From NCBI GenBank assembly GCA_030374765.1, contig JARGXX010000080.1, positions 1,178,001 through 1,242,000 on the forward strand: a stretch of DNA of 64,000 bases, read 5' to 3'. The position numbers and the translations under genes are program-made. Every line of letters begins with the position of its first letter. Position 1 is the stretch's first letter. Below are positions 776 to 47,584 of this stretch, one piece after another. This DNA is from Agarophyton chilense. Lineage: Eukaryota; Rhodophyta; Florideophyceae; Gracilariales; Gracilariaceae. The notes under the pieces were generated by a model. That model made no database searches. It had not been told where the DNA came from and saw nothing but the letters and a program-made list of their open reading frames with translations.

Positions 776-1697
776 TGTAGTGCAACGCCAAGGGCGGCGG
801 AAACACACGAAGATGTCCGAGCCTTTCTCCAAGGAGGGTAGCACGGCGACGGAGCCTCTCCGGAGTGAACACGACTAAATCGGGGTGTAAGGCCGAGGTT
901 CACCGGCACGCCAAGCGGGGAGAGTGCGGGATGCTAGAACGGAGCAGACCAGGTATGAGCTGTATTCCACGGGAGTGGGCAAGTCTCGAGATCGAGTAAT
1001 GCACCCACAGGAGTTGCGGTAAACCCCGTAAGCCGGCGCGCGGCACATGCGCGAGCGGCACGAATAACCAACCACAAAGCAAAAGGGGGAGCTACCACGA
1101 GAGTGGGTAAGCGATAAAAGAGGGACCACCCAGTGGAGGCGATCGGGGGCATGGGCCACGAGAGCCAAAAGAAATATGTAGCAAACCCAATACTGGGGCG
1201 AGAACACGGCAGTGGTATGAAAGATACACACGCTAACAGCGGTGAGTCTCCTGGTAACTCAGGGTAGATAAGTCTACCGTTAGTAACGCGGCTTCACTTC
1301 CGTAGAGTGTGAAAGACTCGCGAAAGCGGAAAAAGACTTAGAGCCAAGAACCCTGGTTGGGGAGGTTTACTGAGTGTCAGGGCGAGATCGCCCTGGCACT
1401 ATATAGTGTAGAATACTGTAAAGAGCTCCCTAACCTAGTGTAATAAAGCTAAATAAATCGAGAAATATCCAGCTATGCTGTGCCAACCTGTCCTGGGCCA
1501 CCCGTGGTACACGTGGGTAAGTCCCACCCGAATCGAGGCCACGGCGCACGGCCGCCGGTGCACTTCGCGTACAACGCGCATACACCTGGCTACGCCAGCC
1601 CGCTAGTAGCGGTATTACTCATAGATCTCACAAGTATCGCCCGAGGCGGAAAAACAACCAAGTCCTGGAAAACGGCCCTCACGAGGGTTGGACTTCA
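776..1697 (-). repeat. Element A 3' LTR (922 bp)
   Basis: Same length and layout as 11878-12799. Read in the element's sense the LTR begins TGAAGTGCAAC and ends GTTGCACTACA, so the ends form a near-perfect 11-bp inverted repeat (10 of 11) inside the usual TG...CA. It contains the 12-bp palindrome CACTATATAGTG at 1397-1408. The accessory ORF begins 36 bp beyond its inner edge and runs away from it. Confidence 0.93.
1397..1408. promoter_or_regulatory. Palindromic TATA-like element in A LTR
   Basis: CACTATATAGTG is a perfect 12-bp palindrome, so a TATA box reads the same from both strands. The other LTR has the same site at 12499-12510. Candidate core promoter for gag-pol (from the 5' LTR) and possibly for the antisense accessory ORF (from the 3' LTR). 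Function is inferred from sequence only. Confidence 0.5.
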
Positions 1698-1712
1698 TAT
1701 CCCCCTCCTGAG
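1698..1712 (-). promoter_or_regulatory. Polypurine tract of element A
   Basis: On the minus strand this reads CTCAGGAGGGGGATA and ends exactly where the 3' LTR begins with TGAAG. It is the plus-strand DNA primer site expected in any LTR retrotransposon. Confidence 0.88.
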
Positions 1713-1732: not shown

Positions 1733-3665
1733 ATGGTGGGCGACGCGCCGAGACGAATGCATAAGAGTGCAACCAGCTCGCTGGGATGCACTTCATCCGA
1801 TGCCAACAAACGAAGTGCGGCAAAACTCCAGTCTCCTGGCAACAACCGTTCTCAACGTTCCATCTCAACCGAATCCGCATCCTTGCGTGCCAGTCCTCCG
1901 ATTCCTCGGCATCGTCTTTCGCTTCGCCGGTCTCCTCTTCCGGTCATCCGGCCTCTTCGCTCACCGATGAGCAACCAAAACAATCAACCCAACCGTCTCC
2001 CTGCGGGGTACTTCTCCGGCTTCCGGTCCGCTCCGCTTCCGCAAAGCGCGTCATCGGCTGCGCCGCAGATTCCTATCGCGAACGCGGCTGCTGCTCCGTA
2101 CGGAATGTTCCCCCCCGAGAGGGTGGCCGCCATACGACATGCTTGTCGGGCGCCATCCTGGGCATCATGCGTCCGTTCTCCGGCTTGCGCCGTGGTTCCA
2201 CCCGATTGCGGTGTTAAACGAAGCGCTCATAGCGATGTACACCGATGGAAACGGGATGCTTCCGGGCGATATTCCGGGCGTGGCGACATCTTCGTTGGAT
2301 TGGCGACGCCACGTAGCGGTTCCGGTCCACGCTGTGGCGCGCCGGGGTAGTGAAACCTCGGCTTCCGCTCATGCGGCCTTCGTCCTTCTTGGCCATCAAC
2401 GGCTTCGCCGGGCTCCTTTCGAATATCCCATCCCCGATGGTCTCGGCACCGACATTCGGCTTTACGGCACTCAAGGTGAGATTGGTTACGTCGACCGCCT
2501 GGTGGGTTTGGAAACACTCTCGTGGAGGGGCATCCCGATAGCACGGCAAGAGGCCATGTGCTGGACGCGACCGATTATCCGGGCAGAATTCCGCTACATG
2601 CGTCGACTTGCGCGGGCCAACTTCCTCGCCCTGATCCGCTTCGAGCGTCGAGCACGATCCCGACTCAGGTATTTGGTCCCGTATCAGAACGTGGAGATCG
2701 AACGCCTTCGCGTGGCCGACCGACGGGGTCGCTATGTCCTCATTCCACCGTGGTGGTCGAACCTCGAGGCTTGCCGGGGCTGTTACATCGAGCTGCCACC
2801 AGTCATCACGTATTACGGTTCGTACCTCATCGAGGATCCCGAGTCCGGACTGTGGTCCGTGGTGATTACCGAATGGGCAGTCCGCGCGGCGGTCTTCATT
2901 CTCTGGGAGGTGTATGACCAGTACAGACTGTGGTTCCTCCCGTTCCGGTTGAGGTCCGCGATTCGCAGCCTGGACCTGAGCACCCCACTTGGTGGAGTAA
3001 CCAACGCCGAAGAAGTGGCGGGTCTTCTCGATTACATCGACCAGTTGGACTGGACCACCGTTCCGATTGAACAAAGCGGGCGCACCGTGGGTAGCCGGGG
3101 TCAGGACCTGTCACCAGGAAGGCGTACTCCCTTGGGAGGTGATTTCGTATACCTTGACCCTTGGGAAGGGCACGAAATCACCGCGGAGGAAGCGAACGAA
3201 CTCCGGTTTGCACCACGCCATATACCCGAGGGGCATCCGATCGGTTTCGTGGACGCGGATGAATATTACCACGTCTACGACGGCGACGATCCAATGGTGG
3301 ACAACGAACCCGACGACGGGGAAGCGTACGCCGAGGCGGAGGTCGAGGGATCTGAAGCGGAAGGTCCCTATAACGAGCCAGCCACGCCTTACGTGGATTT
3401 GGATAACCCCGCGGGGGCTGGGTCGGAGTACGCGGTAGCTGGACCACCTCCGGTTCCACCGGTGAATCTCCCAAGTGGTGGGGCGTCCGCCCCAGGCGAT
3501 GCGAGCTCCGCTCCGGCGGGTCAAGCGGCCTTGATCTCCCAGTTCCTGCGACAGGTGGGGCTGGGGACCAACGCAGCGAGTGGCGATGTTGCCGCGATGC
3601 GCGAGGCCTTGATCACCCGCCTCCAGGGAGGTAACCAACCCGGGGGCGGTGAGCCGAACCCGTGA
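1733..3665 (+). CDS. Antisense accessory ORF of element A (aORF), one frameshift
   Basis: Unknown function. A gene of about 640 codons on the strand opposite to gag-pol, between the pol end and the 3' LTR. I take the ATG at 1733 because its MVGDA start matches MGDA in C1 and C2; a second ATG is at 1967. The reading frame changes by one base in a run of seven C (2110-2116); after it the protein runs to 3665. N-terminal third is Pro/Ser-rich with GFRSAPLPQ (GFRSVPLPQ in C). The central domain has IRAEFRYM, RSRLRYLVPYQ, GCYIELPP, YDQYRLW, LDL and SPGRRTPLGGDFV, all with counterparts in C and D. An acidic stretch and a C-terminal QFLRQVG helix follow. No signal peptide; at best a weak hydrophobic segment near AVFILW. 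Alternative: a captured host gene. Confidence 0.8.
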
Positions 3666-3844
3666 CGGGGCACGCGATCCCGATGGGAAGTTTTCCCTTG
3701 TGACTTAGAGTAGTATCTCGAGTGCTCGGTATTCCATCGATAGCTTCGAATAAAAACCAAGTGACTTGTGTAACCCAAAACCTTCCTTCACTAGCCTGTT
3801 CTCAAGCAAACCTACTTCTCTTTTCTCTTCCACCGAGGTGGGTG
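3666..3844. other. Spacer between convergent pol and accessory ORF in A
   Basis: Only 179 bp separate the stop of the accessory ORF (plus) from the stop of pol (minus). The stretch is pyrimidine-rich on the plus strand (CTTCTCTTTTCTCTTCCACC), so purine-rich in the pol sense. Equivalent purine-rich spacers occur in C1, C2 and D. It is a natural place for the 3' ends of two converging transcripts. Confidence 0.5.
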
Positions 3845-6139
3845 TTATCCCACCTGGGCTTTAACAACCGATGCCGGGATTCCCGTCCGCGTTCTGCGGT
3901 GATATGACACCACCTTCGAACGTGGGAGATGTTCCATCGGCTCATCCGAATCCCATTCGGGCCCTAAACCGTACCAACGGACGAGGTATTGAATATAACC
4001 ATCCGGATGGTATGAGTGCTGCACTATGTGGTCGACCACGAACTCCTTCTCGTAGACTTCCCGCCCTTGCGGTGTACGCGTCACCGGACCAAACCGGGGT
4101 ACGTCCGCAGGTGCGTGTGGGCTACTGTACCCTTCCCACGAGGGGTCCATGGGTTGGCGTTGCCTTTCCATGCCCTGGGTAGGTGAACGAACCGGGTTCC
4201 GGGTTGCCTTGGCCGCTTGGCGGGTTGCTTCCGCCAAGGCGTCATGACGAAGATCGTCAGTTCGTCGGCTTCGGCCGGAGGCCTTCCCATGGGGCAATTC
4301 TCCCAGTTTTTGGGTCGGAATGCTTTTCGAGAGTTCTCGTGCAGAGGCCACCCTTCGGGGGAACGCGGACTCATCCCAGGGCTGGGTTTCGCGGTAGCGT
4401 TCCGCGAGTCGTCGGGGTGGAATCCGTCGCGACGGTGCTGGACTTGACGCGGGAGGCGGTTTCATCACGGGGCGTTGTACCTCACCGGGTGAGCCGCCTT
4501 GGGCGTTGATTGGCGTATCTCCCGAGCCGGGTGTCGTCTGGTCACGTGACACGTCCGGCTGATGGCTGGGAGTACTCCGCGCCGTGCTGCGTTCCGCCTC
4601 CTCACGTGAGGGCGTGTGCAACGGCACTGCCGGTATGTCTGCTCGCTTGGGCGACAAAGTACCGCTACGGGCGTGCAACTCCGGGTCAACCGTGCCTTCC
4701 TCACCAACGGGCGGCGAAGTGCGCGGCGAGGAACCCCTGCGGGGAGCGAGTTCGTCCTCAACTATCCCTTTCGAGGGTTCAACTTCACTCGGCGACGAGG
4801 TTCTTCCGTCCTTGACGGGCACATTCTCCGGGGTGACCGGTGCGCCTTCGACAACGCTGTCGGGGTCAACCGAGACACTCGGAGTGCGTCCGCCTCTGCG
4901 CGCGGGTTCTGAACCAGCATCAAGCGTGCTGGGTGTGAATCTCCCGTCTGCTACGGTGTGCTTGCCCGGCTTAGCCGGTGTGTCCTGCCGTACAGTACGA
5001 GGGACCACTTCCGATCGATTCGGCCTAGAGGGGCCTGCGAGGGCGTGCTCTAAGTTTTCCAGCGTAGCTGGTGTCGACGAACCGTGACCCACGGGCTGCG
5101 GGTCAACGCTCGACGGCATAGCCGGTCCAGTATCGCGAGGGCGAACAGCATCCTGCGACGATTTCGGTTTCGCTTCGGCGAGAGGGTTTCCACTACGTGG
5201 TGCGTCCTGTGGAGTAGAGTCCCCGTGGGGAGTGCGATCAGACGCAGATGCGGTGGCGCTTCCCATAGAGGGTTCAGCAACGGCTGTAGCGCGCAAATGT
5301 GGAGATGGCACGTCGGTAGACGGGACGTCCGGATCACCGTTGTTCTTGCTGGTGTGTCCAGGAGTCCGTGCACCACGGTTGTCATGACGCGACGAAGCGG
5401 TTTCCGTCTCTCGACGAGAGTTATGAGCCTCCTCCCCCTCCTGAGACGGAGCGGCATGGGGAGTGGTTGAAACGCCCAACGGGCGGGGGTAGACAGCGCG
5501 CCGTGGCGTGAGAGAAGAGAGGCCATTCTGGCCTTGGTCCGATAAGATCGGCAAGTCAGAGACTCCCCGGGTAGGGTGTGGTAACGCAGAAGGTCTGGAA
5601 ACCACGGCAGTGGGCTGAGCCACTGTTGTGTGCCGAGCACCATCATCCTCAGAGAGGGATTGTTGACCCATTTCGGTTACTTCCAACGTCAGTGGCGGGG
5701 CGAGTACAACGCGGTCGCGGGAGATCCGCTCATGAGCGTCGACAATTTTCACCACGATGGTGTCGTCTTTCACCGAAATGAGCTTGTAAGGACCGTCCGC
5801 GACGGAAGAAAGCTTGTGCTTCTTTTCCTTTTCAGGGTTACAGTACTCCTTACGGACGAAGACCAAGTAGCCGGCTTTGATTGGCGGGGCCTTACCGCGT
5901 ACGCGAGAGTCGAAATCACGCTTGTAAGCGGCCTGGGCACGAGCCATCGAGCTTCGGGCGACCGGGATCAGCTTCGTAAGCCACTCTTTCCACCTGTGGC
6001 GATAATCCTTCACGGAAGGGAACGCATTTAGCGTGGGCTGGGGTTCTAACGCGACAGCGGGCGGAGGGCGGGACGAGACCAGTTCGAATGGAGTCAAGCC
6101 CGTAGTTCGGTGTACCTGCGTATTGTACGCGAACGTCAA
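3845..6139 (-). CDS. Element A pol, C-terminal part: integrase tail, GPY/F-like module, linker, chromodomain
   Basis: 764 codons. The first ~60 residues continue the integrase core interrupted by a frameshift just upstream (AYNTQVHRTTGLTPFEL). Around residues 110-160 lies a GPY/F-type module with DGPYKL and VVKI. About 500 residues of Pro/Ser/Thr/Glu-rich, probably disordered sequence follow. Near the C-terminus (plus-strand 3900-4055) is a chromodomain with EFVVDHIV, YLVRWYG and WDSDEP. Of the three aromatic cage positions known from HP1, I see F, W and then L, so methyl-lysine binding may be weakened or different. In chromoviruses this module directs integration to marked chromatin. Ends 179 bp from the convergent accessory ORF. 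Confidence 0.88.
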   Translation of the reverse strand: MTFAYNTQVHRTTGLTPFELVSSRPPPAVALEPQPTLNAFPSVKDYRHRWKEWLTKLIPVARSSMARAQAAYKRDFDSRVRGKAPPIKAGYLVFVRKEYCNPEKEKKHKLSSVADGPYKLISVKDDTIVVKIVDAHERISRDRVVLAPPLTLEVTEMGQQSLSEDDGARHTTVAQPTAVVSRPSALPHPTRGVSDLPILSDQGQNGLSSLTPRRAVYPRPLGVSTTPHAAPSQEGEEAHNSRRETETASSRHDNRGARTPGHTSKNNGDPDVPSTDVPSPHLRATAVAEPSMGSATASASDRTPHGDSTPQDAPRSGNPLAEAKPKSSQDAVRPRDTGPAMPSSVDPQPVGHGSSTPATLENLEHALAGPSRPNRSEVVPRTVRQDTPAKPGKHTVADGRFTPSTLDAGSEPARRGGRTPSVSVDPDSVVEGAPVTPENVPVKDGRTSSPSEVEPSKGIVEDELAPRRGSSPRTSPPVGEEGTVDPELHARSGTLSPKRADIPAVPLHTPSREEAERSTARSTPSHQPDVSRDQTTPGSGDTPINAQGGSPGEVQRPVMKPPPASSPAPSRRIPPRRLAERYRETQPWDESAFPRRVASARELSKSIPTQKLGELPHGKASGRSRRTDDLRHDALAEATRQAAKATRNPVRSPTQGMERQRQPMDPSWEGYSSPHAPADVPRFGPVTRTPQGREVYEKEFVVDHIVQHSYHPDGYIQYLVRWYGLGPEWDSDEPMEHLPRSKVVSYHRRTRTGIPASVVKAQVG

Positions 6140-9100
6140 GGCGTCGGTATATAAATCCCATGTCTTTGGTGGTCGGCCCCGTAAGAACGGAGAGACGCTA
6201 ATAGCGTTCGGTTAAACCGCTCCACTTTCCCATTACACTGGGGGTGATAGGTCGTTGTGAACAGGTTCTTGATGTCAAGAATCCTGCACACGTCCTCGAA
6301 GAATCGCGATGCGAACTGTTTTCCGTTATCGGATAGAAGATTAACCGGCGGGCCGTAGACGAATACCCAATGGGTTACAAATGCTTGGGCAACCGTGAAA
6401 GCGGATATCTTCCGTAGAGGTACGGTCCGAAGCAGTTTTGAGAAACGATCCGTGATAACTAGTAAAAACTTATGTACACGTCGTGTGGTGAGGAGCTTAC
6501 CGAGGATGTCAATGGCGACAAACTCGAGAGGAGCCCGTGCCGGGAATAGTTTCAACTTCGTTGAGTACTTGCGAAGTTTCACCCGATTATTAGCACATTC
6601 GGTACAAAACCGCACCGTTGCGTAGCTATCCACCGCCATGGCGGGCCAGTAGAAATTCCTTCGCAAAGTGAGGTAGAGCTTCCGTCCACTGGCGTGTCCA
6701 CCAAGTTTCGCATAGTGCGATAGATGCAAAACTCTAGACTGTAGAGTATGCGGCACCACGACTTGTGGGGATGACTGAACCGTCCTGACGAGGTATCCAA
6801 GATCGTTCACCTCGAAAGGGAGTTGTGCACCGCCATTAAGCGAGGCGCGAATCTTCGTACAGAAGGAGTCACCCTGCTGTTCTCTGACCATCTCCTCCGG
6901 GGGTATTGGCACAAAATTACCCGGCGGGGGTTTCTCTGAATCGTCCGAGACGAGCAATGCGTCAATATCATCATCTGATTCCGGGCTTTCGTTCCATTTA
7001 TCGTGTAACCAATCCGGGTCCCCCGGTGTTCCATCGTCTACGACGAAGCAAGGTATATACTCTTCATCGACGGCTAGAGCTTCCCCATTCGTGGGTAAAC
7101 GCGAGAGCGCGTCCGCTTGCGCGTTCTGAGTGCCCTTCTTGTAGATCACTTCAAAGCCATATTCCGCGAAGCGGAGTCTCCAACGCATTAAGCGGCCTGA
7201 CGGCTCCGAGATGGTCATGAGCCATCGTAGGGACGAGTGATCCGTGTAAACGGTAAAGTGCACACCCATGAGGTAGGGGCAGAGTGTAGAGAGGGCCCAC
7301 ACAACTGCGAGGCACTCCTTCTCCGACACGGAGTAGTTCCGCTCGTGGACATTGAGCGAGCGTGACCAGTACCCAATGGGTTTGCGTTCTCCTTCGGGAG
7401 TATTTTGAAAGAGCGCACAGCCTACCTGGTAGTCGCTAGAGTCCGTGTCCACGGAAAACGGTAGTCCGGGTTTCGGTAACGATAGAATCGGTGCTGATGT
7501 GACAGCCTCCCTAAGGGAGTTAAAAGCATCCGTCTGGGCGGACGTAAAGGGGTCCAGTTTAAGTGGTTGACCTTTCCGCAGAAGCGCGTTCAAGGGGGCC
7601 GCGATGTCAGCGAAGTTAGGGATAAACCGTCGGTAGACGTTGACCAATCCTAGAAAGGAGCGCAGTTCCGTCTGGGTAGCGGGTTCTTTCGCCTTGCGAA
7701 GGGACCTCACTCGAGCTTCCTCGATCATTACACGTCCCGGACGGATAATATGTCCGAGATACTTCACAGTATCGGTAAAGAACTCACATTTCCTCAGTTT
7801 GAGGGTTATTCCAGCATCACGTAGCGTGGTCATTATGTCCCTGACATGGGTGAGATGGTCATCCAGATTGTCTGAGAATACAATGATATCGTCCAAATAG
7901 ACGAGGCAAGTACGCCACTTAAAGCGGGCCAACAAAATGTCGATAGCACGCTGAAAGGTAGCGGGAGCATTGGTTAGACCAAAAGGCAACCGTTTGAAAC
8001 GGTAGAGTCCCGAGTGACAGATAAACGCAGTCTTATCTTGGTCCTCCTCCCTAACGGGAACCTGCCAATATCCCCAATTGGCGTCCAAAGCCGTGAACAC
8101 GGTAGCAGTTCCGAGAGAGTCGATGTACTCATCCATTCGTGGGATCGGATACACGTCCTTGACGGTAGCATCATTCAAGCGACGGTAGTCGATGCAAAAG
8201 CGCCAGGACCCATCGGGTTTCGGACCCAGTACCACTGGGGATGCCCACGGCGACTGAGCCGGTTCGATCACTCCAGCTCGGAGCATTTTGTCCACTTGAA
8301 ACTGTTCCTCTTCTCGAGCCTTGGGGCCTGCCCTGTAAGGGTGTTGAGCCACCGGTCGGGTGTTCGGCAACAAATCTATCCGGTGTTCCGTTGTATTTAT
8401 CTCACCAAGAGAGCCATCCCGCATTGTGGTAAACTCCCGTAACATCTCACGCAGACTTTCACGGTGTGACTCCGGTACATGAACGAGGTCGAGTTCCTCG
8501 AGTTCTTTCACGGGGTCTACCCGGTCGTAACTCGTCAGAACGGGCTTCTTTTCTGTTTCGGCAGGTTGCGATTCCGAATCATTCGGTGATTGGACGGCAG
8601 CTTCCTCCCCCTCCTTAGAGTGAACGAGACCGAGGACTTCGGCAGCGGTCAGCCTAGTGGGGACCATCGCGGTGGGGTGAGGCATTACCGATCCAATAAC
8701 TTGGTTCTTCACCAGTGACTGGGGGGTGGAGCCCAGATTGGCAAAGAGCACGGTGAACGGCTTGTCTGGGACAATCTGCGCGACTCCATTCGCCACGGCG
8801 AGTTGATATCCATCGTACAGAGATGAGAGAGGCTGAATGACTCGTAAACCGTGTTGACGGGAAGTGACACGCACCCATACTTGGGACTCTGGCGGGATTC
8901 GGACAGACGCAGCCACGCGGAGCTTGGTAGACTCCCGAGAAGCGAGTGGAGGTTCCTGCGCGGCAGGGAGCGGTACGTGCTTCTTGGAGGCACGCTGCAG
9001 CGGACGACGGACAATCGGGCCCGACGAGCCGTCTTCCATGTCAACACGCTTTAAGCGGGGCCTTATGGCGTCAACGAATCTGTCACAGAAGTCACATCCC

Positions 9101-9549
9101 AAGATGACGGGGGCAGCCAATTTCCGGCATACAATAAAGTCGAGTTTCACCACGAAGGAGCCCAAGCGAACGACGAGAGCGACGGTTCCGACCGTTGACA
9201 ACGGGTTGTTATTCGCGTCCGCGACGTCGGGCGCCACGCCAAGGCGGATCTGAGACCGCAAGGGCAGGGGCAGCAGCGACTCACCGATGAAATTCGGACC
9301 AGCAACTGTGTCCAAAACAGTAAGGACTCGAACCATAATCTGAGTAGAAAGGCAAAGGTCGGCATACACCTTGTAATTGCGCTTGGCCATTACTAAGACT
9401 CTATCCGGGAACCGGCGGTTAAGAACACGTTTCCACGGTCGACGTAGAACACCAAAGTGTTCAGAGTCCATGTCTGAGACGGCCTGTTTCCTCGTGAGGA
9501 TTGTGACTGGGGAGCGAGGCGGAGACGCCTCGGGCGTCGTCAACCTCAC
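6136..9549 (-). CDS. Element A pol: protease, RT, RNase H, integrase
   Basis: 1137 codons. The open frame begins with GTG at 9549; the first ATG is at 9471 (MDSEHF). Residue 80 starts the protease motif LDTVAGPN, where the third residue of DTG is Val, so the active site is probably dead. RT has FCIDYRRLN, LPFGL and YLDD near residues 551-554. RNase H has VDTDSSDYQVG and YTDHSSLRW. Integrase has the H..H..C..C zinc finger ending FCTEC, then AIDIL, LLSDNGKQF and KVERFNR, giving the D,D,E triad. The frame is lost near 6170: a one-base deletion relative to D ends this ORF and throws the tail into the next one. A stop at 9625-9627 separates this frame from gag, so direct frameshift fusion is not possible in this copy. 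Confidence 0.92.
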   Translation of the reverse strand: MRLTTPEASPPRSPVTILTRKQAVSDMDSEHFGVLRRPWKRVLNRRFPDRVLVMAKRNYKVYADLCLSTQIMVRVLTVLDTVAGPNFIGESLLPLPLRSQIRLGVAPDVADANNNPLSTVGTVALVVRLGSFVVKLDFIVCRKLAAPVILGCDFCDRFVDAIRPRLKRVDMEDGSSGPIVRRPLQRASKKHVPLPAAQEPPLASRESTKLRVAASVRIPPESQVWVRVTSRQHGLRVIQPLSSLYDGYQLAVANGVAQIVPDKPFTVLFANLGSTPQSLVKNQVIGSVMPHPTAMVPTRLTAAEVLGLVHSKEGEEAAVQSPNDSESQPAETEKKPVLTSYDRVDPVKELEELDLVHVPESHRESLREMLREFTTMRDGSLGEINTTEHRIDLLPNTRPVAQHPYRAGPKAREEEQFQVDKMLRAGVIEPAQSPWASPVVLGPKPDGSWRFCIDYRRLNDATVKDVYPIPRMDEYIDSLGTATVFTALDANWGYWQVPVREEDQDKTAFICHSGLYRFKRLPFGLTNAPATFQRAIDILLARFKWRTCLVYLDDIIVFSDNLDDHLTHVRDIMTTLRDAGITLKLRKCEFFTDTVKYLGHIIRPGRVMIEEARVRSLRKAKEPATQTELRSFLGLVNVYRRFIPNFADIAAPLNALLRKGQPLKLDPFTSAQTDAFNSLREAVTSAPILSLPKPGLPFSVDTDSSDYQVGCALFQNTPEGERKPIGYWSRSLNVHERNYSVSEKECLAVVWALSTLCPYLMGVHFTVYTDHSSLRWLMTISEPSGRLMRWRLRFAEYGFEVIYKKGTQNAQADALSRLPTNGEALAVDEEYIPCFVVDDGTPGDPDWLHDKWNESPESDDDIDALLVSDDSEKPPPGNFVPIPPEEMVREQQGDSFCTKIRASLNGGAQLPFEVNDLGYLVRTVQSSPQVVVPHTLQSRVLHLSHYAKLGGHASGRKLYLTLRRNFYWPAMAVDSYATVRFCTECANNRVKLRKYSTKLKLFPARAPLEFVAIDILGKLLTTRRVHKFLLVITDRFSKLLRTVPLRKISAFTVAQAFVTHWVFVYGPPVNLLSDNGKQFASRFFEDVCRILDIKNLFTTTYHPQCNGKVERFNRTLLASLRSYGADHQRHGIYIPTP

Positions 9550-9707
9550 TGTTGGGGACGCCTCTCCCGAAGGGGAGACTCCCGAAATCAGTTTTCCTGA
9601 GTCCCATCCGCCTGGGGCGGGGCCTCAGAATCCTGAACCACTAGCAATGGGGCGCCAGCGGCGGGGTTTGAAGGAACGGGGCGGTGGTCGGGAGCCTGCT
9701 CGGCAGG

Positions 9708-11765
9708 TTAAAGCAACGCATTGCGCGGTTTCGCCTCCGGAATACTCCGTGGAAAATCGACCTTCTCTCGGAGATACGACGTCATCGGAACAATCCGCTT
9801 TTCCACTGGGGTCAACGCCTCATAATTACCGATTACTCGGGCTACTTCCCTCATGGTGAGGATACAGTCCGGTGAAATGTGACCGTGTTCGTAGCAAATG
9901 TGGCATATGAGTCCCGGGCGTGAGGGCTGCAAACCGGAGCGAGCATCCGTGAACTTCACCGCTTGGCGGGTATCCTTCCATCCAGGGCGACTCTGTCGGA
10001 GCGCACCGTTTGAATACGGGATGCGAGGTCCGTGAACACGGGGAGAGTCTGCGTACAGCAGGGGTCCATCCTGGGCCGTGTCATATGAGTCGTCCGTCGT
10101 AGACGGTAGTTCGGTTGTCGGGACCGAATGGATATCGCTTCGGTCGAAGTGTACGTTGTCGTACTCCTGTTGGGGGCGCTTAATCGCAACCAGCGAAAGG
10201 GATGGCGACTTCGTTTCCATCACCAACGCCTTGGCGGTTCGCGACCTGTGCCCGGGGGCACGAGCTCTTAAAGCGTCACCTTCCGCTTGCGCGTGTAGGA
10301 CCAACTCCAGATACGTGGTCTTCCTTCGGTCTCCCCGGTAACGGGCCACGAGTGTTCGGATAGCGGGGTCAAGTCCATCGATGAACATGGTGCAGCGTTC
10401 TCCGGCGGAGTGTACGTTCCCACTACGGTGGAAAGCCTTGTTCAGGCGCACCGAGAATTCGGTTTCCGTTTCTCCAGACTTCTGGCGCGTATCGCGAAGA
10501 GCGAGAATGGCCGACTGAATCGCGTGATTAGTGGCGTAGGACCTCAAGAGGTATTGTACTGCTTCTGGCCAGCAGGTTACCCCTCCTTCGGAGGCTCTAG
10601 ACGAACCTCTTACAGAGTTGTATTGATCCTCGGCGAGGCCTTTCATAAAGTACGGGAGTGCAATAAACGCCTGTCCTTCGGTCATACCGAGAATATCCGC
10701 TTCGGCGACGAACCTCGCAAGGAAATCCAACACCAAAATGGGGTCTTCTCCAGAAAAGTTCTGGTTCCTGAGGGACAGTTGCATACGCTTTATGCAATCC
10801 TTCACTCTACCCGTGCCACGGGGCGTGCGATCCAAAGAGGAGTTCTCTAGCCGATAGTATCGGTAAGAAACCAACTTCTTGTACAGGGGGTTGGTGCATT
10901 TCAGCTCCTTCAACCCGGAGTGTTTCCTTCCCTTCTCGCGGGCGCGGATCACACCTTGGGTGGCAGACGACCGTTTAGAACGGGATGAACGCCTGCGATG
11001 GCCATCGTCAGAAGACAAATCTGACGAGTCCGACCCATTTGAATGGTGAGAGCCACGCGACGACCGTGAGGAGTTCGACGAGTCCGAGTCATCGCTGTCA
11101 CGCTTTCCACGTCGACGGCGGGTATCGTCCCTTTCCCTCTCGTGTTTCGCTTGTTGCGACACAGCAACCGGCTTCTCCGGGACGTCTTCCATCAAGATGG
11201 TTTGCTCTAACTTCTGGAGACGGGCGCTAACACGATTGAATCGGGTCTCGACACCTTCCACGTAAGCAGCGGGACCACCAAAACATTCCAACAGGGTGTT
11301 GACGTCCGCCCGCAACAAGCGGAGGTCGTCAACCACTTCCTTCATAGAAGAGCCATCACACCTGGAACGAAGGGCTTCGAACTCTTCCACGAAGTCATTG
11401 TGCGCTTCCCGCATTACGCGGATCTGCTGCCTCACACTTGAGTTGGTGTCGATGTGGAACTCGTTTTTCTGGGCCTTTTCGTCGGCAGGAGCCGGGTCAT
11501 CCACGGCAGGGGCCGGTCCAGCACCAGAATTGGGTCCATTCTTCGACGCCTTAGGCGGTAGCTTGTTGTTCTTGGAGGAGTTCGACCCCTTACTCTTGCC
11601 TTTCGAAGCGGCTTGAGGTAACGGCGGGGGAACCCTTCCAGGGTCCGCAGGCACCACGTCATTGACGGAACGGCTCCGCGTGATCGCGGGTTCCGCTTCC
11701 GACGGTAGTCGTGACATGGTTGTAGCGTTGACCACTAAGAATAGGACAACAAACGCTCCCACCAA
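9708..11765 (-). CDS. Element A gag
   Basis: 685 codons, intact. The likely start is the second Met at 11717 (MSRLPSE), because the C-family gag also starts just before an RSRSVND motif; the first 16 residues are then 5' leader. Order: basic/Ser-rich N-terminus with RSRSVND, a coiled-coil-prone stretch around residues 110-200, an Arg/Ser/Asp-rich block, the capsid-like retrotransposon gag domain (IALPYFMKGLAEDQY, WPEAVQYLLRSYA) and one zinc knuckle, CHICYEHGHISPDC, fitting C-X2-C-X4-H-X4-C, near residues 621-634. Makes the virus-like particle and binds element RNA. Confidence 0.92.
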   Translation of the reverse strand: MVGAFVVLFLVVNATTMSRLPSEAEPAITRSRSVNDVVPADPGRVPPPLPQAASKGKSKGSNSSKNNKLPPKASKNGPNSGAGPAPAVDDPAPADEKAQKNEFHIDTNSSVRQQIRVMREAHNDFVEEFEALRSRCDGSSMKEVVDDLRLLRADVNTLLECFGGPAAYVEGVETRFNRVSARLQKLEQTILMEDVPEKPVAVSQQAKHERERDDTRRRRGKRDSDDSDSSNSSRSSRGSHHSNGSDSSDLSSDDGHRRRSSRSKRSSATQGVIRAREKGRKHSGLKELKCTNPLYKKLVSYRYYRLENSSLDRTPRGTGRVKDCIKRMQLSLRNQNFSGEDPILVLDFLARFVAEADILGMTEGQAFIALPYFMKGLAEDQYNSVRGSSRASEGGVTCWPEAVQYLLRSYATNHAIQSAILALRDTRQKSGETETEFSVRLNKAFHRSGNVHSAGERCTMFIDGLDPAIRTLVARYRGDRRKTTYLELVLHAQAEGDALRARAPGHRSRTAKALVMETKSPSLSLVAIKRPQQEYDNVHFDRSDIHSVPTTELPSTTDDSYDTAQDGPLLYADSPRVHGPRIPYSNGALRQSRPGWKDTRQAVKFTDARSGLQPSRPGLICHICYEHGHISPDCILTMREVARVIGNYEALTPVEKRIVPMTSYLREKVDFPRSIPEAKPRNALL

Positions 11766-11860
11766 GTGGGTCTAAACCAAGAAATTGGAAAGCAGATCTC
11801 GACGAGAGAAGACAGCACAGCAATGTGAAAAACAACCAAACCAGGTCCCCCTAGCCTTCT

Positions 11861-11874
11861 AAGTCGGGAGACCA
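11861..11874 (-). promoter_or_regulatory. Primer binding site of element A
   Basis: On the minus strand, three bases after the 5' LTR, the sequence is TGGTCTCCCGACTT. It would pair with a tRNA ending AAGTCGGGAGACCA. The same TGGTCTCCCGA core follows the LTRs of C1, C2 and B2. I cannot name the tRNA without a host tRNA set. Confidence 0.85.
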
Positions 11875-11877
11875 GTT

Positions 11878-12799
11878 TGTAGTGCAACGCCAAGGGCGGT
11901 GGAAACACACGAAGATGTCCGAGTCTTTCTCCAAGGAGGGTAGCACGGCGACGGAGCCTCTCCGGAGTGAACACGACTAAATCGGGGTGTAAGGCCGAGG
12001 TTCACCGGCACGCCAAGCGGGGAGAGTGTGGGATGCTAGAAGGGAGCAGACCAGGTATGAGCTGTATTCCACGGGAGTGGGCAAGTCTCGAGATCGAGTA
12101 ATGCACCCACAGAAGTGGCGGTAAACCCGGTGAGCCGGCGCGCGGCACATGCGCGAGCGGCACGAATAACCAACCACAAAGAAAAAGGGGGAGCTACCAC
12201 GAGAGTGAGTAAGCGATAAAGGGGGGACCACCCAGTGGGGGCGATCGGGGGCATGGGCCACGAGAGCCAAAAGAAATATGTAGCAAACCCAATACTGGGG
12301 CGAGAACACGGCAGTGGTATGAAAGATATACACGCTAACAGCGGTGAGTCTCCTGTTGACGCAGGGTGGATAAGTCTACCGTTAGTAACGCGTCTTCACC
12401 TCCGTAGAGTGTGGAAGACTGGCGAAAGCGGAAAAAGACTTAGAGCCAAGAACCCTGGTTGGGGAGGTTTACTGAGTGTCTGAGCGAGATCGCCCTGGCA
12501 CTATATAGTGTAGAATACTGTAAAGAGCTCCCTAACCTAGTGTGATAAAGCTAAATAAATAGAGAAATATACAGCTATGCTGTGCCAACCTGTCCTGGGC
12601 TACCCGTGGTACACGTGGGTAAGCCACACCCGAATCGGGGCCACGGCGCACGGCCGCAGGTGCACTTCGCGTACAACGCGCATACACCTGGCTACGCCAG
12701 CCCGCTAGTAGCGGTATTACTCATAGATCTCACAAGTATCGCCCGAGGCGGAAAAACAACCAAGTCCTGGAAAACGGCCCTCACGAGGGTTGCACTTCA
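11878..12799 (-). repeat. Element A 5' LTR (922 bp)
   Basis: Pairs with 776-1697 over the full length. The palindrome CACTATATAGTG is at 12499-12510. The transcript should start in this LTR and run toward lower coordinates into gag. Confidence 0.93.
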
Positions 12800-12804: not shown

Positions 12805-13416
12805 GTATGCTCCTGTCTTGTTTCGGGAGCTTAGTGACGCTCAACCGTAGGGAGCGTGTTGACGCTCAACCTTAGAAGGTAGACGTAGTAAACCTCGATA
12901 ATATCAGGGCACTGTGAAAACTCGGAGGGAGAAACGGCGGGGCACCTAGCCTATACCGTGTAGGTGAACGATTGTAGGCGTCGACGCGCGGGAAACATGT
13001 GTGGTAGTTGAGAAACGATGAACCAAAAGGTATAGTTCTGACCGAAGTGGTGCCTGTCTTTATCAGAATAGGGTGAAGGAGGTGCAGTTCTCTATATGCA
13101 GTGGACTGCACTCTCCAGATCACCCGGGAGGTGCCAACAAGGCACGGTCTCTGACCTAGTGTCAGAGACCCGGCCAGCACTGGCTACAGTTCCAGGTGGC
13201 CACTCCACTACTGTACTAACGTGACTATAATTACAATTACAATTACTAACAATTACTCAACCAAGAGGTACATGTCAACACTACACGTGGCTGACAAAAC
13301 CTAGATGGTAGCTCGCCCGGAGCTGCATGACTGATGATTCCTTGCATCCATCACCTACAAGGTCAGTATAGTATATCGACAACCTCAAAGGTCAAACCTT
13401 CTGCCACTATACGACA
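12805..13416 (-). repeat. B1 3' LTR (main part)
   Basis: On the minus strand it starts TGTCGTATAGTGG at 13416, right after AGGAAGGGGGTC (a polypurine tract), and runs to the element A insertion, with its last 21 bp at 755-775. TGTCGTA at the start and TACGACA at the end of the B2 LTR form a 7-bp inverted repeat. It is about 24 bp longer than the B2 LTR because a GTTGAGCGTCA-bearing block is duplicated near 12830-12875. Confidence 0.85.
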
Positions 13417-14205
13417 GACCCCCTTCCTACCCGTGAAACACGCCTCGTGTCTCTTTCCATCAAACCATGAAGGTATAGCGAGCGACAGCGGCGCAGGCAT
13501 CGGAGTGGTGTCTGCGCGGGGCGCGCGATCCCTTGAGGTTTAGGACTCGGTGCCAGATTCGGTTGGGGCGGGGGCGCGGCGACGTCGGCGCCCGAATTGA
13601 GCGACAACCATTAAGGTAGGGACTGTCATTAGGAGGATGCAGTGTAACTAGCGCGCTCACGGACACCGTTTCGGTAATGGCACTGCTTGCTTGCGATTCT
13701 GCTTCCGCATAGCCCCCCCTGTCTTACCAAGTTGGTGTGTCACCTTTTCCCGGTTACTCAAACTTCAGTTCCCTCCTAGGTCCCTTTGCAGCGCCATCCC
13801 GCGTGGTCGTTCCCACGGCTCGACAACCCTTCAGGTATTGTCGCCCTTAATTGGCGGCGTCGCGACCGTAACCGTGCTGTCCGGCTTTTCCCTGAAGGTT
13901 TCCTGGCTTCTCAAGCTTTCGGGTTTCGTCTACCTTGTAAGTATTGACTCGTGGCGCCGGTGGCGCCTGAGCCTGCGTCGATACAACCATTGAGGATCTT
14001 GTGGCGGTCGCCTGCCACTTGACTTCCTTAGTGTCTCCTTCTTTAAGTCAATTGTTGTCTCTTCTTGTATCTTCTACTGCTACATTCGGTTGTTCTTTTG
14101 TGTCCTCCCTTGTAGGTAATCTGACACGCACATGCGTCCACCTTCTGCGGAAAACGACGTCTTTTTTCCCCCTTCCTTAGGCCTGAGTATTACAAAGGTC
14201 TAAGG
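13417..14205 (-). other. B1 3' untranslated region
   Basis: The stretch lies between the chromodomain stop and the 3' LTR and aligns in patches with B2 36660-37233. I see no accessory ORF in either B copy here, unlike A, C and D. The polypurine tract GGTAGGAAGGGGG lies at its LTR-proximal end (about 13417-13432). Confidence 0.65.
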
Positions 14206-14688
14206 TTAGCCGTCTGCAGGCATCTGCTCCTTGCGAGGGCGCCAATACCTGGTACGGAAGTGTGGGGGTATTGCGGCTGGGGGTTCGAGGGTGTCCCCTT
14301 CTGGGCCCCAGCCGTACCACCTGACGGTGTACTTCAGACCATTGTAGGTTTGCGTGTGGCCCACAAGACGGTCAACGGGAAATTTCTCTGAGGTTTGGTC
14401 CTGATCTTTCGGAGGAACGCCACCTCTAGGGTTCATATGTTCCGAGTTGGGAGCTTCGTGTGTGGGAGCCGGGTCTGGAGCTCCCGCTGTTACCGTTTGA
14501 GGTTCATTTTCCGTCCCTGTTAGAGGGTTGTAATCCGGATCATCACGCTGAAGGTCATCGTTCACCTCAATTGGGGTGGGGTCCTCCGAGGGTCGAGTGC
14601 GCAGAGCTACAGCTCCGGGCTTTCGGGCTGAAGGTCCTGCCTCAATGCGATGTTGAACTGTTTCAGGTACTACCGTAATACGGTCAAT
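14206..14688 (-). pseudogene. B1 pol C-terminus with chromodomain
   Basis: In frame with the integrase ORF upstream but separated from it by a TAA (14689-14691) that B2 shares. After a short acidic linker comes a chromodomain-like module: FPVDRLVGH, YTVRWYGWG and LEPPAAIP, ending a few residues later. It differs clearly from the chromodomains of A, C and D, and the linker is far shorter than in A. Confidence 0.75.
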
Positions 14689-16311
14689 TTATATGGCATT
14701 CGGTATTCCATCTTGTTCAACCGTAACGGTGTGTTGTGATGCGTTCAATATCTTATAAGGTCCAACTGATTTGGGTAGAAACTTCGAATTGATATCTCTA
14801 TTAATCGCTTCATCGTCCGCTTCATCACCCGGTCGTAGTCTTCTACCTGAAGGTGGATTGTCTATATAAACATATTGTCCTGAAGATACAAAGACCAATT
14901 TGGTTACCCTACGGTCGTAGTCGGCCTTGTACCGCTTCTGGGTTGCAGTGAGGCGGCTCTCTGCATGTTTGAGAGCCCTCCTCAACCTCATAAGGGTATT
15001 TCGCTTGACTTGGGCAGGGGTCAGTGCCCCAGCTGCAGTGCTGGTGGTATGATCTCCTTGCAATACAATACCTGGGGGGTGTCGCGAAAGAACCAAATCA
15101 AAGGGAGTGGTCTTCGTTGACCGGTGTACCTGAAGGTTATAGGAGTAGGTGAGCGTTTGCACCAGCTCATCCCACCCAGTTTGGTGCTCTTCCGTATAGT
15201 GTCGTAGCCTTGATACCAATTTGTGGTTAAAGCGCTCGACCTGTCCGTTCGTCTGCGGGTGGTAGGCAGTAGTGAAATAGTGCTTGATACCCGAGAGGTC
15301 ACAGACTGCTTCGAAGAACTTCGATGCCAGGTTTGAACCAATATCGGTGAGTAAGTACAGTGGTGCGCCATACGGGTAGACCCAATTGTTGAGGAACGCG
15401 ATCGCCAGCGTGGTTGACTTCGTCTCCTTTGAAGGTATCGCTCTCGTGAGCTTCGAGAACCTGTCGGTGATCACTAGAATGTGCTGATACCCATTCTTGG
15501 TTTTGGGAAGTGGTCCTAGAAGGTCTATCGCAACAAACTCCAGTGGACCCACTGCTGGGAACAACTTGAGATAATTTCGATGCTTTCGAATACCACTGCG
15601 AGTACGAACACAAGATTCGCATTGCCCTACAAAGGCATAGAAATCATGGGCCATATGAGGACAGTAGAACAGTTGCCTCAAGGTGCAATACATCCTAGTG
15701 GCACCGGGGTGTTCCGATAGTCGCGGGTAGTGCGCGAGATACAAGACTATCGGTCGAAGCGCCTTCGGAACCACCTTTTGAAGGCTACCATCCAAGGTTG
15801 ACCTTCTCACGATGTACCCATTGTGGTCCACATCGAACGGTGATTCTTTGAAACCAATTTGTTCAGCCAGGGTTCTGCAGTACGCATCCTGGGCCTGTTC
15901 TTGTAGAAATTCCTCTCGGGTTAGAGGCATGACGTTCGTTTCCTCTAGGGTCAGTATCTGCGTTTCCCTGTCGGTGTTCCGCAAAGCACCTTCCTCAGGT
16001 AAGTCCCAACCTCCTTCTAGGTGTTCGCCGGTATCATTTTGGTTTGATGACACCAAAAAGCAAGGGATATCATCGTCCACCGGTTCTGTCTCTAACCCTG
16101 AGGTGTTTAAGCGTGATATAGCATCAGCTATGTTGTGCTTGATACCTGGACGGTACTGTATGTCGTATTCAAACTCCGACAGTCTCAACCTCCAACGGGC
16201 AAGTCTACCAGACGCGTCTGCGAGTCCGAGGATCCACCTTAAGGCGTCGTGGTCCGTGCGCAACGTAAAGCGCTCACCATAAAATATGGACGGAGCATCA
16301 ACATGCTCCAC
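14689..16311 (-). pseudogene. B1 pol: end of RNase H and integrase
   Basis: 540 codons. The N-terminal part finishes RNase H (RTDHDALRWILG, HNIADAISRL). Integrase follows: H..H..C..C finger ending CESC, core residues in AIDLLGPLP, LLTDIGSN and GQVERFN (D,D,E intact), then the tail with VGPYKILN, a GPY/F-type module. It is cut off from RT upstream by a frameshift near 16290-16310. The final TAA is shared with B2. Confidence 0.88.
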
Positions 16312-17211: not shown

Positions 17212-17877
17212 TGTAGTATTCTACTATGTCGGGGAATCCGATTGGCTGGTTTTTCGCGAAGTCGCGGTTGGAACTCATGGGTGAGTGTTATCATCAGCGT
17301 TGTGATATGAAACGGCACACCGCGTAGGATGCCAGGAGGCAGGGTACATTGTTGGAACACGTGGCATCACGAGTGGAGTGGCTTGCAACGGCGCATGTAG
17401 TGGCGATCCACGTGGCTTGTTTTACTACCATTTGTAGCTAGACGTCCATTAGGGACCATACCCATACAGTGGTTTGGCTAAGTGGCTGACCACTGGGTAT
17501 TATTCATATATTATTTGGGCACTCACCCTGGTACACAGTATATATTGTACCAGAGGTGAGCGCCGACTCCAAATAAAGGAGACAACATGGGCATCATGAC
17601 TATTCTGTTCCTGGCTTAGGATTCCTTAACCGGAGATCCGGACGAGCTATAATAGATAGTCAGCCCCCAACTACTTCACGAGCCGTCTCGAACCTACGTT
17701 CCATAAACGTTTTACAGTTGCACTGTTCACCCTCCCTGGCGAGTAGTGGCCTTACACCCCACTTCCACCTCGCTGGTGTTGTAGCTCTACCACCCCTTTT
17801 CCTTCGCCGCAAGCGACCCATCGGCAGTCCGAACGCTGTCGCAGGTGTCTGCTCTCTCCGTTAGAGTGGACACTACA
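17212..17877 (+). repeat. C1 5' LTR (666 bp)
   Basis: Begins TGTAGTATTCTAC and ends GGACACTACA; the C-family termini form an almost perfect inverted repeat (TGTAGTATTC against TGTAGTATCC in other copies). Contains a TATA-centred dyad at 17519-17563. Confidence 0.92.
17519..17563. promoter_or_regulatory. TATA-centred inverted repeat in C LTR
   Basis: The arms GCACTCACC plus CTGGTACAC and, after AGTATATA, TTGTACCAG plus GGTGAGCGC are complementary with few mismatches. In the C1 3' LTR (inner dyad 26120-26145) the 9-bp inner arms CTGGTACAC/GTGTACCAG are perfect. C2 and C3 keep it with mismatches. Candidate core promoter or RNA hairpin; the function is inferred. Confidence 0.5.
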
Positions 17878-17879
17878 AG

Positions 17880-23651: not shown

Positions 23652-23951
23652 ATATGGGCTACAAAGGTAGTAAAAACTCGAAAGGCGAGAAGAAAACAAG
23701 AAATCATGAAGAGGAAACGTGAAGACACGCAAGCAAAGGACGTTTACTGATTACCACCTAGGACAAACTCGAGAAGCGAGAAGAAGGATTGAAGAACTCG
23801 AGAAGTGAGAAGGGAAGTATGAAACTCGAGAAGCGAGAAGAGATGAAAACTAGAATATAAGAAGGGAACGTGAAGACACGAAGTCACCGGAGTTTTATTG
23901 GTATCAAGATACCACCGCAAGGGTGTTGACTAGGAGTCTTTTCAAGGATCA
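23652..23951. repeat. Purine-rich spacer with short repeats in C1
   Basis: Between the pol stop and the accessory ORF stop. The motif ACTCGAGAAGCGAGAAG recurs with small changes at about 23670, 23765, 23795 and 23823, in a strongly A/G-rich plus strand. The same block is in C2 (54747-55046). It parallels the spacers in A and D. Confidence 0.65.
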
Positions 23952-25778
23952 TCAAAGAGACATGCGAGCACGCAGGTTCGCAAGAAGCTGTGCGCGATCA
24001 CCCCCAACTTGGTCCACGGGAAAGCCCGCATCTAAGAGGAACTGCCTCAGCGGATCCAAGCCTGGATCTTCGACTGGCACTGCACTCGGTTGTTGGGTAA
24101 ACCCATGGAAGTTCTCTTGAGCAACTCCCCCCGCTGCGGATTGATCAACGGAAGTCGCTACGCCTACAAGCTCTGGCTCGTCCTCGAAACCGAGTTCAGC
24201 CTCAGCTGCCGGCGCTTCCTCATATGGTTCCTCTCCGTTCTCGGATGGAGTAGCATCGTACACGTATCGAGTAAGCTGGTTCGGTGGCAAGTGAGGCGGG
24301 TTCTCCCGAAGAAAGCGAGCCTGCTCGGAGGTGTTCAAATGGCGCGTCCAGGGGTTGTACGAAACGAAATCTCCAGCACTTGCTGTTCGTCCAGGAGAAT
24401 GGTCGTAGTGTCTTGCACGGGTTCCGCGAGCGGATTGATCAGCTGGCACTCCAGACCAATCGATACTGTCGATCAAATCCACAAGATGGAGGAAGTCGGC
24501 ATGGTTCGCACCGGATCCCAGGACAAGGGTAAGATCGAGTTCTCTCGCATACTTTCGTGCCGTGGGCGACATGTACCAAACTCTAAAGGTAACATAAGCA
24601 TCCCACAGGAGGAAGACGGCCATCTTGGCTATAAACTCGGTATAAACCACCGTCCAGTATCACGAGAACGGGTCGTTAACCAACGCGTACCCGATGTAGG
24701 AGATCGCTGGTGGGATCTCCACAAGGCAACCACGAGGACTATCGATCGCCGCCCAATGCTCCGGCATGCTGGTGTAGCGCCCGAAGCGCGCGTTCCGCCG
24801 GATGCGGTCAATCTCGATCATTTGATACGGCACCAAATAGCCCAAACGTGATCGAGTACGACGTTCCCAACGGGGATAATCCCAATAGGGAATGTCACGC
24901 TTTCGAAGGAAGCGGAACTCCGCACGGAGAAGAGGTTACTGAAAGCAGAGAGCTGCATCACGCACACCGCGCACACCGCGCCAACCGCTAACATCGACTT
25001 CAACGAGTGTCTTGATATACGAGTATCCTTCACCGTCGGTACGGGCTTTCCAGGTATCTAGTTCCCAATCCTGCGGGAGGGGAACCGTACTGATGAATCG
25101 GTGAAGACGCTGGTAAATCAGCTTGGTGAACCGGGTACGGGCTTCGCACAAGGTTTCCGTTGAATATCGCGCAATTGCGTTGTCTGGCAAAGAAATATGG
25201 CTCGCCCAGTCGTCGCTATAAATCGCGTGTTACGGAATACCGTCGGGGAAGTACCCACCGTGTACATACTGTTGCATCAATGCGTCATCGCGGATAGAAA
25301 CTGGATCAAACCAGGGCGCTTGCGCGAAAAGTTCAACGTTGTCGAGAGGATCTCGTCCATATAAATACGCAGGGTGCGGGTAGCTCCGCTGAGAACGACG
25401 AGAAGGAGCTCGAATTACACCCGCAGAGGCGACGTAAGCCGCGTTCGGCATCGGAGCCACGGTTGGCTGAGGTAACGGTACCGACCGGAATCCGGTGTAC
25501 GGTGTGGGGAACGAACGGTATGGACCGAGTTGAGCAGTAGGCTGCGACGCATAACCAGCAGTGTTGGACGGAGCCCCAGAAGGCACATCCTCAGAGAAGG
25601 GCTGAAACGGATTGGACCCGGCGTTCGGATTCATCGCCAGAGATGGAGCTGAACAGCGGTGAGGAACAGAATGCTGTTGAAAACTGTAAGAGTTGGTCGG
25701 GCGGCGAAGAATTCGTGAGGACGATGAGTACCCGGAACACCGGTCCGACTTCGTATAAACGCTACTTGCGTCCCCCAT
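23952..25778 (-). pseudogene. C1 antisense accessory ORF (aORF), broken
   Basis: Unknown function; homologous to 1733-3665. Starts MGDASSVY at 25778, 25 bp from the 3' LTR, and spans about 608 codons to 23952. N-terminal Ser- then Pro-rich part contains GFRSVPLPQP; the middle has SRLGYLVPYQ, GCLVEIPP, AVFLLW, LDLTLVLG and SPGRTASAGDFV; the end has RQFLLDAGFP. Stops: TAA at 25230-25232 (shared with C2, absent from C3), TAA at 24936-24938 (private), and a further break near 24655. No known domain or clear membrane helix. Confidence 0.82.
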
Positions 25779-25791: not shown

Positions 25792-25802
25792 CGAGGGGGG
25801 TA
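25792..25802 (+). promoter_or_regulatory. Polypurine tract of C1
   Basis: CGAGGGGGGTA directly before the 3' LTR start at 25803; similar to the PPT of A (AGGAGGGGGATA). Confidence 0.85.
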
Positions 25803-26474: not shown

Positions 26475-27388
26475 CTCGTACGGATATCCCCTTTCTTCTG
26501 AACTAGAACCACGGGACTAGCCCAATCTGAGTTAGCTGGTTCAATTACCGCTTCTTGGGGCATTCGCTCCACTTCTTTAAGTTCTATCTCTCTCGCCTTC
26601 GGACCTGCCCGGTATGGTTGCTGGTAATTCGGGTTCGAGTCAGGGAGGAGCTCGAGGCAATGCTGTGTGGCCTTAATTTGGCCCAGATGGCCTGACCACA
26701 TGGTTTCGAACTCCTCCAGAAGGTCGATAATACGGCCCCGAAGTTCGCCGTTATCTTCACCGATCTGGACTGTATCTTGCCATTGCCTCTCAGGGTCAGG
26801 TTATTCTTCTTTGTCTACCGATGCCTTATCGGTTAGCTTTGATTCCAAGTTGGTGTTTATCGATATCTTTGTGGTTGTGGACGCATTTGCGCACCCCCCT
26901 TCCTTATCGAAGGCGACCTTGCCGAGATCAGTGTGAGCTACGGTGAAGACCCCTTGTGGTGTCGGTAGTACGATGCCAACATTGGTATTTTTCGGCAACT
27001 TCACGTCGTGACGGCTGAAGTTGCTGAGACCCACCTTAAAGGGTTGATTTGGGATGTTGCCGACAATCCCGTTGGCCATCAAGGTGAGGTGTCGATGTGC
27101 TGACCTCAGATGGTTTTGTAGTAGGACCAGCCCGGGGGTCGCACATGACACCGGTACCAATATTAGGTGCATTGGCGGGATAACAACTTGTTTGGTAATG
27201 CGCACTTTGTTGGAGACCGTTTTGGTGGATATTGTCTTCTTCGGTTTGACAAACCATCCCCGTTTGGTTTCCGTATTACCTAAAATGGCAATTCGTTCCC
27301 CCTGACGTAGGGCGACGGTATGGGAACCACGAAGGATTGCTTTGACATGTCTGTCAATGAAGTTCGTACCTAGTAGGCAGTCTGTCGG
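26470..27388 (-). pseudogene. B1 pol: protease-RT connector and RT N-terminus
   Basis: Minus-strand frames carry NGIVGNIPNQPF and the connector (27205-26801), then YRAGPKAREIE, EAVIEPANSDWASPVVLVQKKGD, the conserved start of the RT fingers, in 26701-26470. A stop near 26800 splits the two. The RT fingers piece is of interest because B2 has lost about 130 bp here. Confidence 0.82.
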
Positions 27389-47582: not shown

Positions 47583-47584
47583 AT

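Follow-up and report, generated by a model that had tools for sequence, protein, structure and literature searches.

Several Ty3/Gypsy retrotransposons residing in this stretch of DNA possess a long reading frame between pol and the 3′ LTR, on the strand opposite to pol, and the question arises whether this frame represents a genuine third gene of the elements and, if so, what its product does. The genome, of 79.8 Mb in 135 contigs, belongs to a red alga rather than to a land plant, most likely to a member of the Gracilariales near Agarophyton, as the protein matches bearing a species name come from Agarophyton chilense and Gracilariopsis chorda. Within the window (the whole 64,000-nucleotide stretch analyzed), the frame, comprising ~610–645 codons, was found in three Ty3/Gypsy families, termed A, C, and D. 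The features concerned are the following:

776–1697, minus strand: 3′ LTR of element A, 96.4% identical to its partner LTR
1733–3665, plus strand: antisense gene of element A (ATG at 1733, TGA at 3663–3665; 645 codons in uninterrupted copies elsewhere)
3845–6211, minus strand: C-terminal part of A pol, with the integrase end, a long low-complexity stretch, and the chromodomain
6136–9624, minus strand: pol of A, with RT, RNase H, and integrase
9708–11771, minus strand: gag of A (Retrotrans_gag, 21.2 bits, under the curated cut-off of 24.1)
11878–12799, minus strand: 5′ LTR of element A, the other member of the pair
17212–17879 (5′) and 25803 to about 26470 (3′), plus strand: LTRs of element C1, 94.6% identical
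23952–25778, minus strand: antisense gene of C1 (ATG at 25778; three internal stops at residues 183, 281, and 373)
46955–47583 (5′) and 56898–57564 (3′), plus strand: LTRs of element C2, 90.4% identical
55047–56873, minus strand: antisense gene of C2 (ATG at 56873; two internal stops at residues 183 and 507)
57637–58362, plus strand: C-terminal part of the D antisense gene (broken frame, ~245 residues; cut near the C2 end)
58569–62132, minus strand: pol of D (RT/RNase H at 60756–62132; chromodomain within 58569–59546)
62811–64000, plus strand: antisense gene of C3 (first codon ATA; frame change after ~60 codons; cut by the window end)

The initial annotation had described the antisense gene at its full length of ~610–645 codons in A, C1, C2, C3, and D. 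This observation was largely right and could be partly confirmed: ends and strand held for A, C1, and C2, but none of the five window copies is intact, all being broken or truncated, and the D copy amounts to ~245 residues. In the A copy, the frame changes near 2112–2116, and the open part extends over 1971–3662. Given the LTR-pair identities of A, C1, and C2, the window copies are not fresh insertions. A domain search placed RT, RNase H, and then integrase along A pol, and a chromodomain was detected at the pol end of D (26.6 bits, cut-off 25.1) and, just below the cut-off, of A (23.7 bits); that of C was assigned through its similarity to A and D. Two further observations concern the structure of these elements. 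At 57564–57644, precisely at the boundary between the C2 end and the start of the D remnant, a 27-residue piece resembling D pol (96%) occurs a second time, in pol orientation, which makes this a repeated or rearranged junction. Furthermore, C1 (17880–17900) and A (11850–11876) have an 18-nt primer-binding-site sequence in common beside the 5′ LTR, although their LTRs differ.

Element B of the same window gave no match to the antisense gene, as the initial annotation had stated, and in its 3′ ends (12850–14700 and 36100–37850) the longest frame opposite to pol spans 113 (B1) and 134 codons (B2). A weak chromodomain match was obtained for B (14209–14688; 17.9 bits versus the cut-off of 25.1). 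Since B, which may still have a chromodomain, lacks the gene, the latter is not simply tied to the chromodomain, and some elements of this type here do without it. B-type gag-pol stretches also occur, in opposite orientation, in the arms of a large inverted repeat (26670–29593 and 30669–33592; 2.9-kb arms, ~96% complementary, 1.1 kb between them).

The antisense frame is a protein-coding gene, the amino acid sequence of which is conserved across element families and algal genera. The A, C, and D proteins can be aligned over most of their length with 32–53% identity, and the blocks noted in the initial annotation (RAEFR, RSRL.YLVPYQ..EI, GC..E.PP, AVF.LW, LDL, SPGR....GDFV, and QFL..G, the last forming a conserved C-terminal end) are present in the alignments. 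Between families, synonymous sites are saturated (pS 0.71–0.80), with pN values of 0.33–0.49 and pN/pS ratios of 0.47–0.62, and columns with identical residues frequently show synonymous codon differences (129 of 204, 175 of 319, and 126 of 184 in the comparisons of A, C, and D). Under a codon model, omega = 1 was rejected for the antisense frame with 2dlnL values of 109 (A–C), 251 (A–D), and 133 (C–D); only the likelihood ratio was used, as the pairwise maximum-likelihood omega for the gene ran to zero with unbounded time. The same test applied to pol as a control gave 207–326. An alignment of eight proteins from the present genome, G. chorda, and unnamed sources contains 49 invariant columns.

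It could be argued that the frame merely mirrors a constraint on the sense strand or arose by chance. The opposite strand does contain frames of 298 codons in A and 271 codons in C, and the sense frame that mirrors the antisense codons shows a reflected conservation between families (omega 0.27–0.40; 2dlnL 39–106). However, over the aligned bases this frame contains 16–30 stops in single copies, and the other sense frames, for both of which omega exceeded 1, contain 6–17, whereas the antisense frame contains none. The between-family test thus refutes this explanation, leaving it a negligible probability, and the corresponding check proposed in the initial annotation came out in favor of the gene.

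The same annotation had suggested dN/dS between copies as a measure of selection, and here the answer was divided: neutrality is rejected between families, but within A and C the ratio is close to 1. Six D copies gave values of 0.37–0.76, compared with 0.70–1.31 when this strand was read in its two shifted frames; for the D copy L058, 0.82–0.93 was obtained. Relative to expectation, N/S in the antisense frame was 0.81 for singletons of A (n = 21) and 0.88 for those of C (n = 24), and 0.63–0.97 for the shared-variant classes of both families, with no z above 2.4. In D (n = 6), singletons scored 0.77 (z 2.2) and shared variants 0.61 (z 1.9), L058 having been excluded from this test because it aligned badly. 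Little constraint is visible within A and C, the copies of which differ mainly through post-insertion changes. Moreover, the within-family tests do not separate the strands because the mirrored sense frame yields similarly low values (0.64 for shared variants of A, 0.85 for C singletons with z 2.2, and 0.78 for D singletons with z 2.3); the between-family test does.

The gene is abundant in the genome, with at least 77 places for A, 124 for C, and 150 for D (at least 351 altogether), and a further group is represented by at least 57 of 98 matches with 42–44% identity to the homolog P0003 among the genome matches listed. In contrast to the window copies, many of those elsewhere are uninterrupted: 25 of the 77 A places listed combine an open frame of 624 codons or more with a match free of stops. 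Among 20 fetched A copies, 11 have the full 645-codon frame with neither gap nor stop, and 12 have an open frame of at least 652 codons. Within family D, identities amount to ~80–92%.

Absence from most complete family members had been named in the initial annotation as an argument against a function, and A and D do not show such an absence. The antisense gene lies on the other strand beside 70 of 80 C-terminal A pol matches with at least 86% identity (eight partial matches at this identity were excluded) and beside 101 of all 123 D pol matches listed. For C, a scored partner gene was present in 35 of the first 60 of 140 pol matches and missing in 25 of the 60; pairing in this family was based on the matches listed, so that a C pol match without partner does not signify absence of the gene. 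The claim of an accessory protein under selection was thus upheld, selection being purifying between families and the gene standing beside most of the A and D pol matches examined. In addition, there is an A-like pol group with 66–69% identity (14 full-length matches, outside the count of 80), located at positions 594928 of contig C109, 228870 of C33, and 476866 of C13 (genome G000) and at 11 more places.

The distance between pol and the gene is 185 or 186 bp in 51 of the 70 paired A matches and varies from 496 to 764 bp in C. This variation may be caused by a tandem array of 31-bp units between gene and pol (L017:2891–3156), with 28-bp units in the window (23765–23848 and 54860–54936), the length of which differs between C copies. 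RT identities are 73–74% for A–D, 54–58% for A–C, and ~55% for C–D, and those of the antisense protein are 52%, 35%, and 32%, respectively. Both rank A–D highest, and this agreement is expected of common descent, three families being a small number for such a comparison.

Homologs of the protein were found in G. chorda (P0002, with 44% identity over 95% of its length, and P0006; 44–46% in this species), in Agarophyton chilense (P0004, P0008, and P0009; 89% identity to a D copy for one match and 92% for two further fragments), and in metagenome or ENA entries (P0003, P0005, and P0007). The G. chorda genes BWQ96_03215 and BWQ96_10156 are annotated as encoding hypothetical proteins. Gracilariopsis falls outside Gracilaria. 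Four Gracilaria species are reported to be ~100 million years apart (PMC12502185), and given the homologs in Gracilariopsis, the gene is probably older than this, unless it was moved between species.

Searches for known domains remained without a match of note. With six members and Pfam matches considered up to E 10, only E3_binding (0.24) and Caskin1-CID (9.6) appeared; TRP28/PF04195 and bZIP were not among the matches, and no gag-, capsid-, or chromatin-type domain was matched by the antisense protein. NCBIfam, PHROGs (best value 0.26), and PDB searched by sequence gave nothing of note, and 33 stretches of viral contigs showing the pattern contained no relative. AlphaFold predictions with five and six sequences reached mean pLDDT values of 41 and 50 without a confident fold, and Foldseek comparison of these poor models with PDB and viral models returned nothing with E < 1. 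The net charge of four full-length proteins is +3 to +14 in the first 100 residues and −14 to −22 after residue 480. In five proteins, the top hydropathy over 19 residues ranges between 1.24 and 1.70, with no clear membrane segment on this measure.

The position of the gene start relative to the LTR was then considered, together with these signals:

1698–1708, minus strand: polypurine tract of A, read on the plus strand as TATCCCCCTCC and named from its position and composition
25793–25802, plus strand: polypurine tract of C1, adjoining the 3′ LTR
56888–56897, plus strand: polypurine tract of C2, adjoining the 3′ LTR
3749–3754, plus strand: AATAAA, candidate poly(A) signal of A, 83 nt past the antisense stop and present in 18 of 21 A copies

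The antisense ATG is separated from the purine tract by 24 nt in A, 14 nt in C, and 24 nt in D, where the LTR edge was placed by alignment to A. In A, 35 nt separate the ATG from the inner edge of the LTR. The antisense-strand sequence at this edge is CATA(T/C)CCCCCTC in all three families and corresponds to the complement of a polypurine tract with the LTR start behind it. A distance of 14–24 nt to the polypurine tract indicates that the promoter is probably located inside the 3′ LTR, since the antisense RNA must begin in the LTR or in the next 24–35 nt, unless it is spliced. Downstream of the gene, C has an AATAAA ~52 nt past the stop in all five copies looked at, whereas none was present within 1.0 kb after the stop in the D copy L056. 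As a shuffled A stretch contains AATAAA in 3% of cases, the evidence of A alone is weak.

Based on these results, we propose, with a probability of about 0.5, that the third gene of the red-algal chromodomain Ty3/Gypsy elements is an antisense accessory gene encoding a nuclear regulator and read from the 3′ LTR. RNA polymerase II would start in U3 of the 3′ LTR and read inward, giving an mRNA with a short leader that includes the complement of the polypurine tract and, in A and C, an end near the AATAAA before pol. The product would begin with a basic N-terminus and end in a helix-like C-terminus, with a conserved core of ~350 residues and then an acidic linker between them. Its charge profile, the lack of a clear membrane segment, and the gene place suggest that it is most likely a non-membrane, probably nuclear regulatory accessory protein transcribed from an antisense promoter of the LTR. 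In the nucleus, it may regulate the element's own cycle at the level of transcription, RNA export, or integration, by analogy with the role suggested for Grande gene23 and reported for HBZ of HTLV-1. Base pairing of the antisense mRNA with the genomic RNA would be expected as well, and copy number may thus be adjusted by the protein and by the RNA. A premature stop at residue 183 is common to C1 (25230–25232) and C2 (56325–56327), and three stop codons, this one included, are each common to two of 24 C copies. Such sharing suggests that a broken gene may not have prevented elements from moving, in which case the product may work in trans, or the element may not need it.

Other roles have to be weighed against a nuclear regulator. 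The protein might be a structural or chromatin cofactor that associates with gag particles or the pre-integration complex to aid nuclear entry or target choice beside integrase. All gene carriers (A, C, and D) have a chromodomain, and the divergence of the gene is nearer to that of gag (31–35% identity between A and C, save one block of 69%) than to that of RT. On the other hand, B has a weak chromodomain match without having the gene, the antisense protein shows none of the domain types expected of such a cofactor among its matches, and the genomic RNA would be a simpler source for a particle protein, which makes this role unlikely, if still worth consideration. Distinctly unlikely is an envelope-like or transmission protein serving cell-to-cell spread: the gene does occupy the place of env in retroviruses, but its orientation is opposite, not sense as in an Env-like ORF, and neither a clear membrane segment nor a match to a viral fold, the latter searched with a weak model, was obtained. 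Defense, export, and transmission had been offered as roles in the initial annotation, and no evidence was found for any of them.

The gene could also be a passenger that was acquired a single time and has persisted by hitch-hiking or because it benefits itself or the host. The absence of known relatives and the copies with a shared premature stop would fit a passenger, which is nevertheless quite improbable in view of selection having kept the gene throughout the divergence of A, C, and D, its occurrence in two named algal genera, and the same order of gene and RT identities. Finally, it might be the antisense RNA that functions, through dsRNA or interference, the frame being incidental. A transcript antisense to the 3′ portion of the element would form a duplex with the genomic RNA, and an RNA-level role has been raised as a possibility for plant elements (PMC7264820). 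We consider such a role highly improbable as the sole function, because conservation between families resides in amino acids and not in DNA, with saturated synonymous sites, and because the protein is conserved between genera.

Comparison with known systems places the red-algal gene, which we regard as encoding a probable nuclear regulator, in a wider context. HBZ, the product of the antisense gene near the 3′ end of HTLV, is a bZIP protein; the red-algal gene has a corresponding position, compatible with transcription from the 3′ LTR, but its protein lacks a bZIP match. The antisense promoter of HTLV is described as lying inside the 3′ LTR (PMC7264820). Antisense genes between pol and the 3′ LTR are reported for the plant elements Grande, RIRE2, and Retand and for the fungal element Boty (PMC7264820, PMC11963269), and Grande gene23 is reported to be nuclear and transcribed from its own promoter (PMC7264820). 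The aORF-3R of Retand-type elements occupies the same place as the red-algal gene, and the tandem array between gene and pol in C resembles arrays reported for Retand elements. Nevertheless, the plant frame of reference adopted in the initial annotation did not hold: the host is an alga, and the red-algal protein has no match to PF04195, the TRP28 family of Grande gene23, RIRE2, and Retand. Retand is described as a non-chromovirus lineage of flowering plants (PMC11963269), whereas the elements studied here carry chromodomains; the pol–3′ LTR region of A measures ~2.1 kb compared with 2.9–6.6 kb reported for Retand (PMC11963269); and the red-algal ATG abuts the polypurine tract, which sets it apart from Retand-type ORFs. 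Boty of Botrytis cinerea has its antisense ORF between pol and the 3′ LTR outside plants (PMC7264820), a likeness of gene place; none of the eight homologs of the red-algal gene is named as fungal. The ORF3 of bdelloid rotifer LTR elements is likewise an accessory gene after pol common to several families, but its reported types are env-like, GDSL, DEDDy, and coiled-coil or membrane proteins (PMC5408684), and no such domain was detected here. Taken together, the red-algal family differs from the plant and fungal antisense genes in host, element lineage (chromodomain), protein, and the start beside the purine tract, and is apparently an unrelated protein in another lineage. A literature search, with subscription papers and preprints outside its reach, returned no paper on antisense genes in red-algal elements.

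Tentatively, a large antisense accessory gene fixed next to the 3′ LTR may have originated independently in red-algal chromodomain elements, plant Retand elements, a fungal element, and deltaretroviruses. If this is true, the interval from pol to the 3′ LTR would be a general site for a regulator, negative or trans-acting, expressed from an antisense promoter of the LTR; here, this regulator would derive from a family without match in the libraries searched.

With these results, the range of LTR retrotransposons carrying antisense accessory genes widens from plants and fungi to include red algae. The protein family involved is not represented in the domain libraries searched; it is kept by selection across element families and occurs in two named algal genera. 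Red-algal annotation may count such antisense element genes as host genes, a possible case being the hypothetical proteins of G. chorda mentioned above. With at least 351 copies in an 80-Mb genome, many of them uninterrupted, the function of genes of this kind becomes testable.
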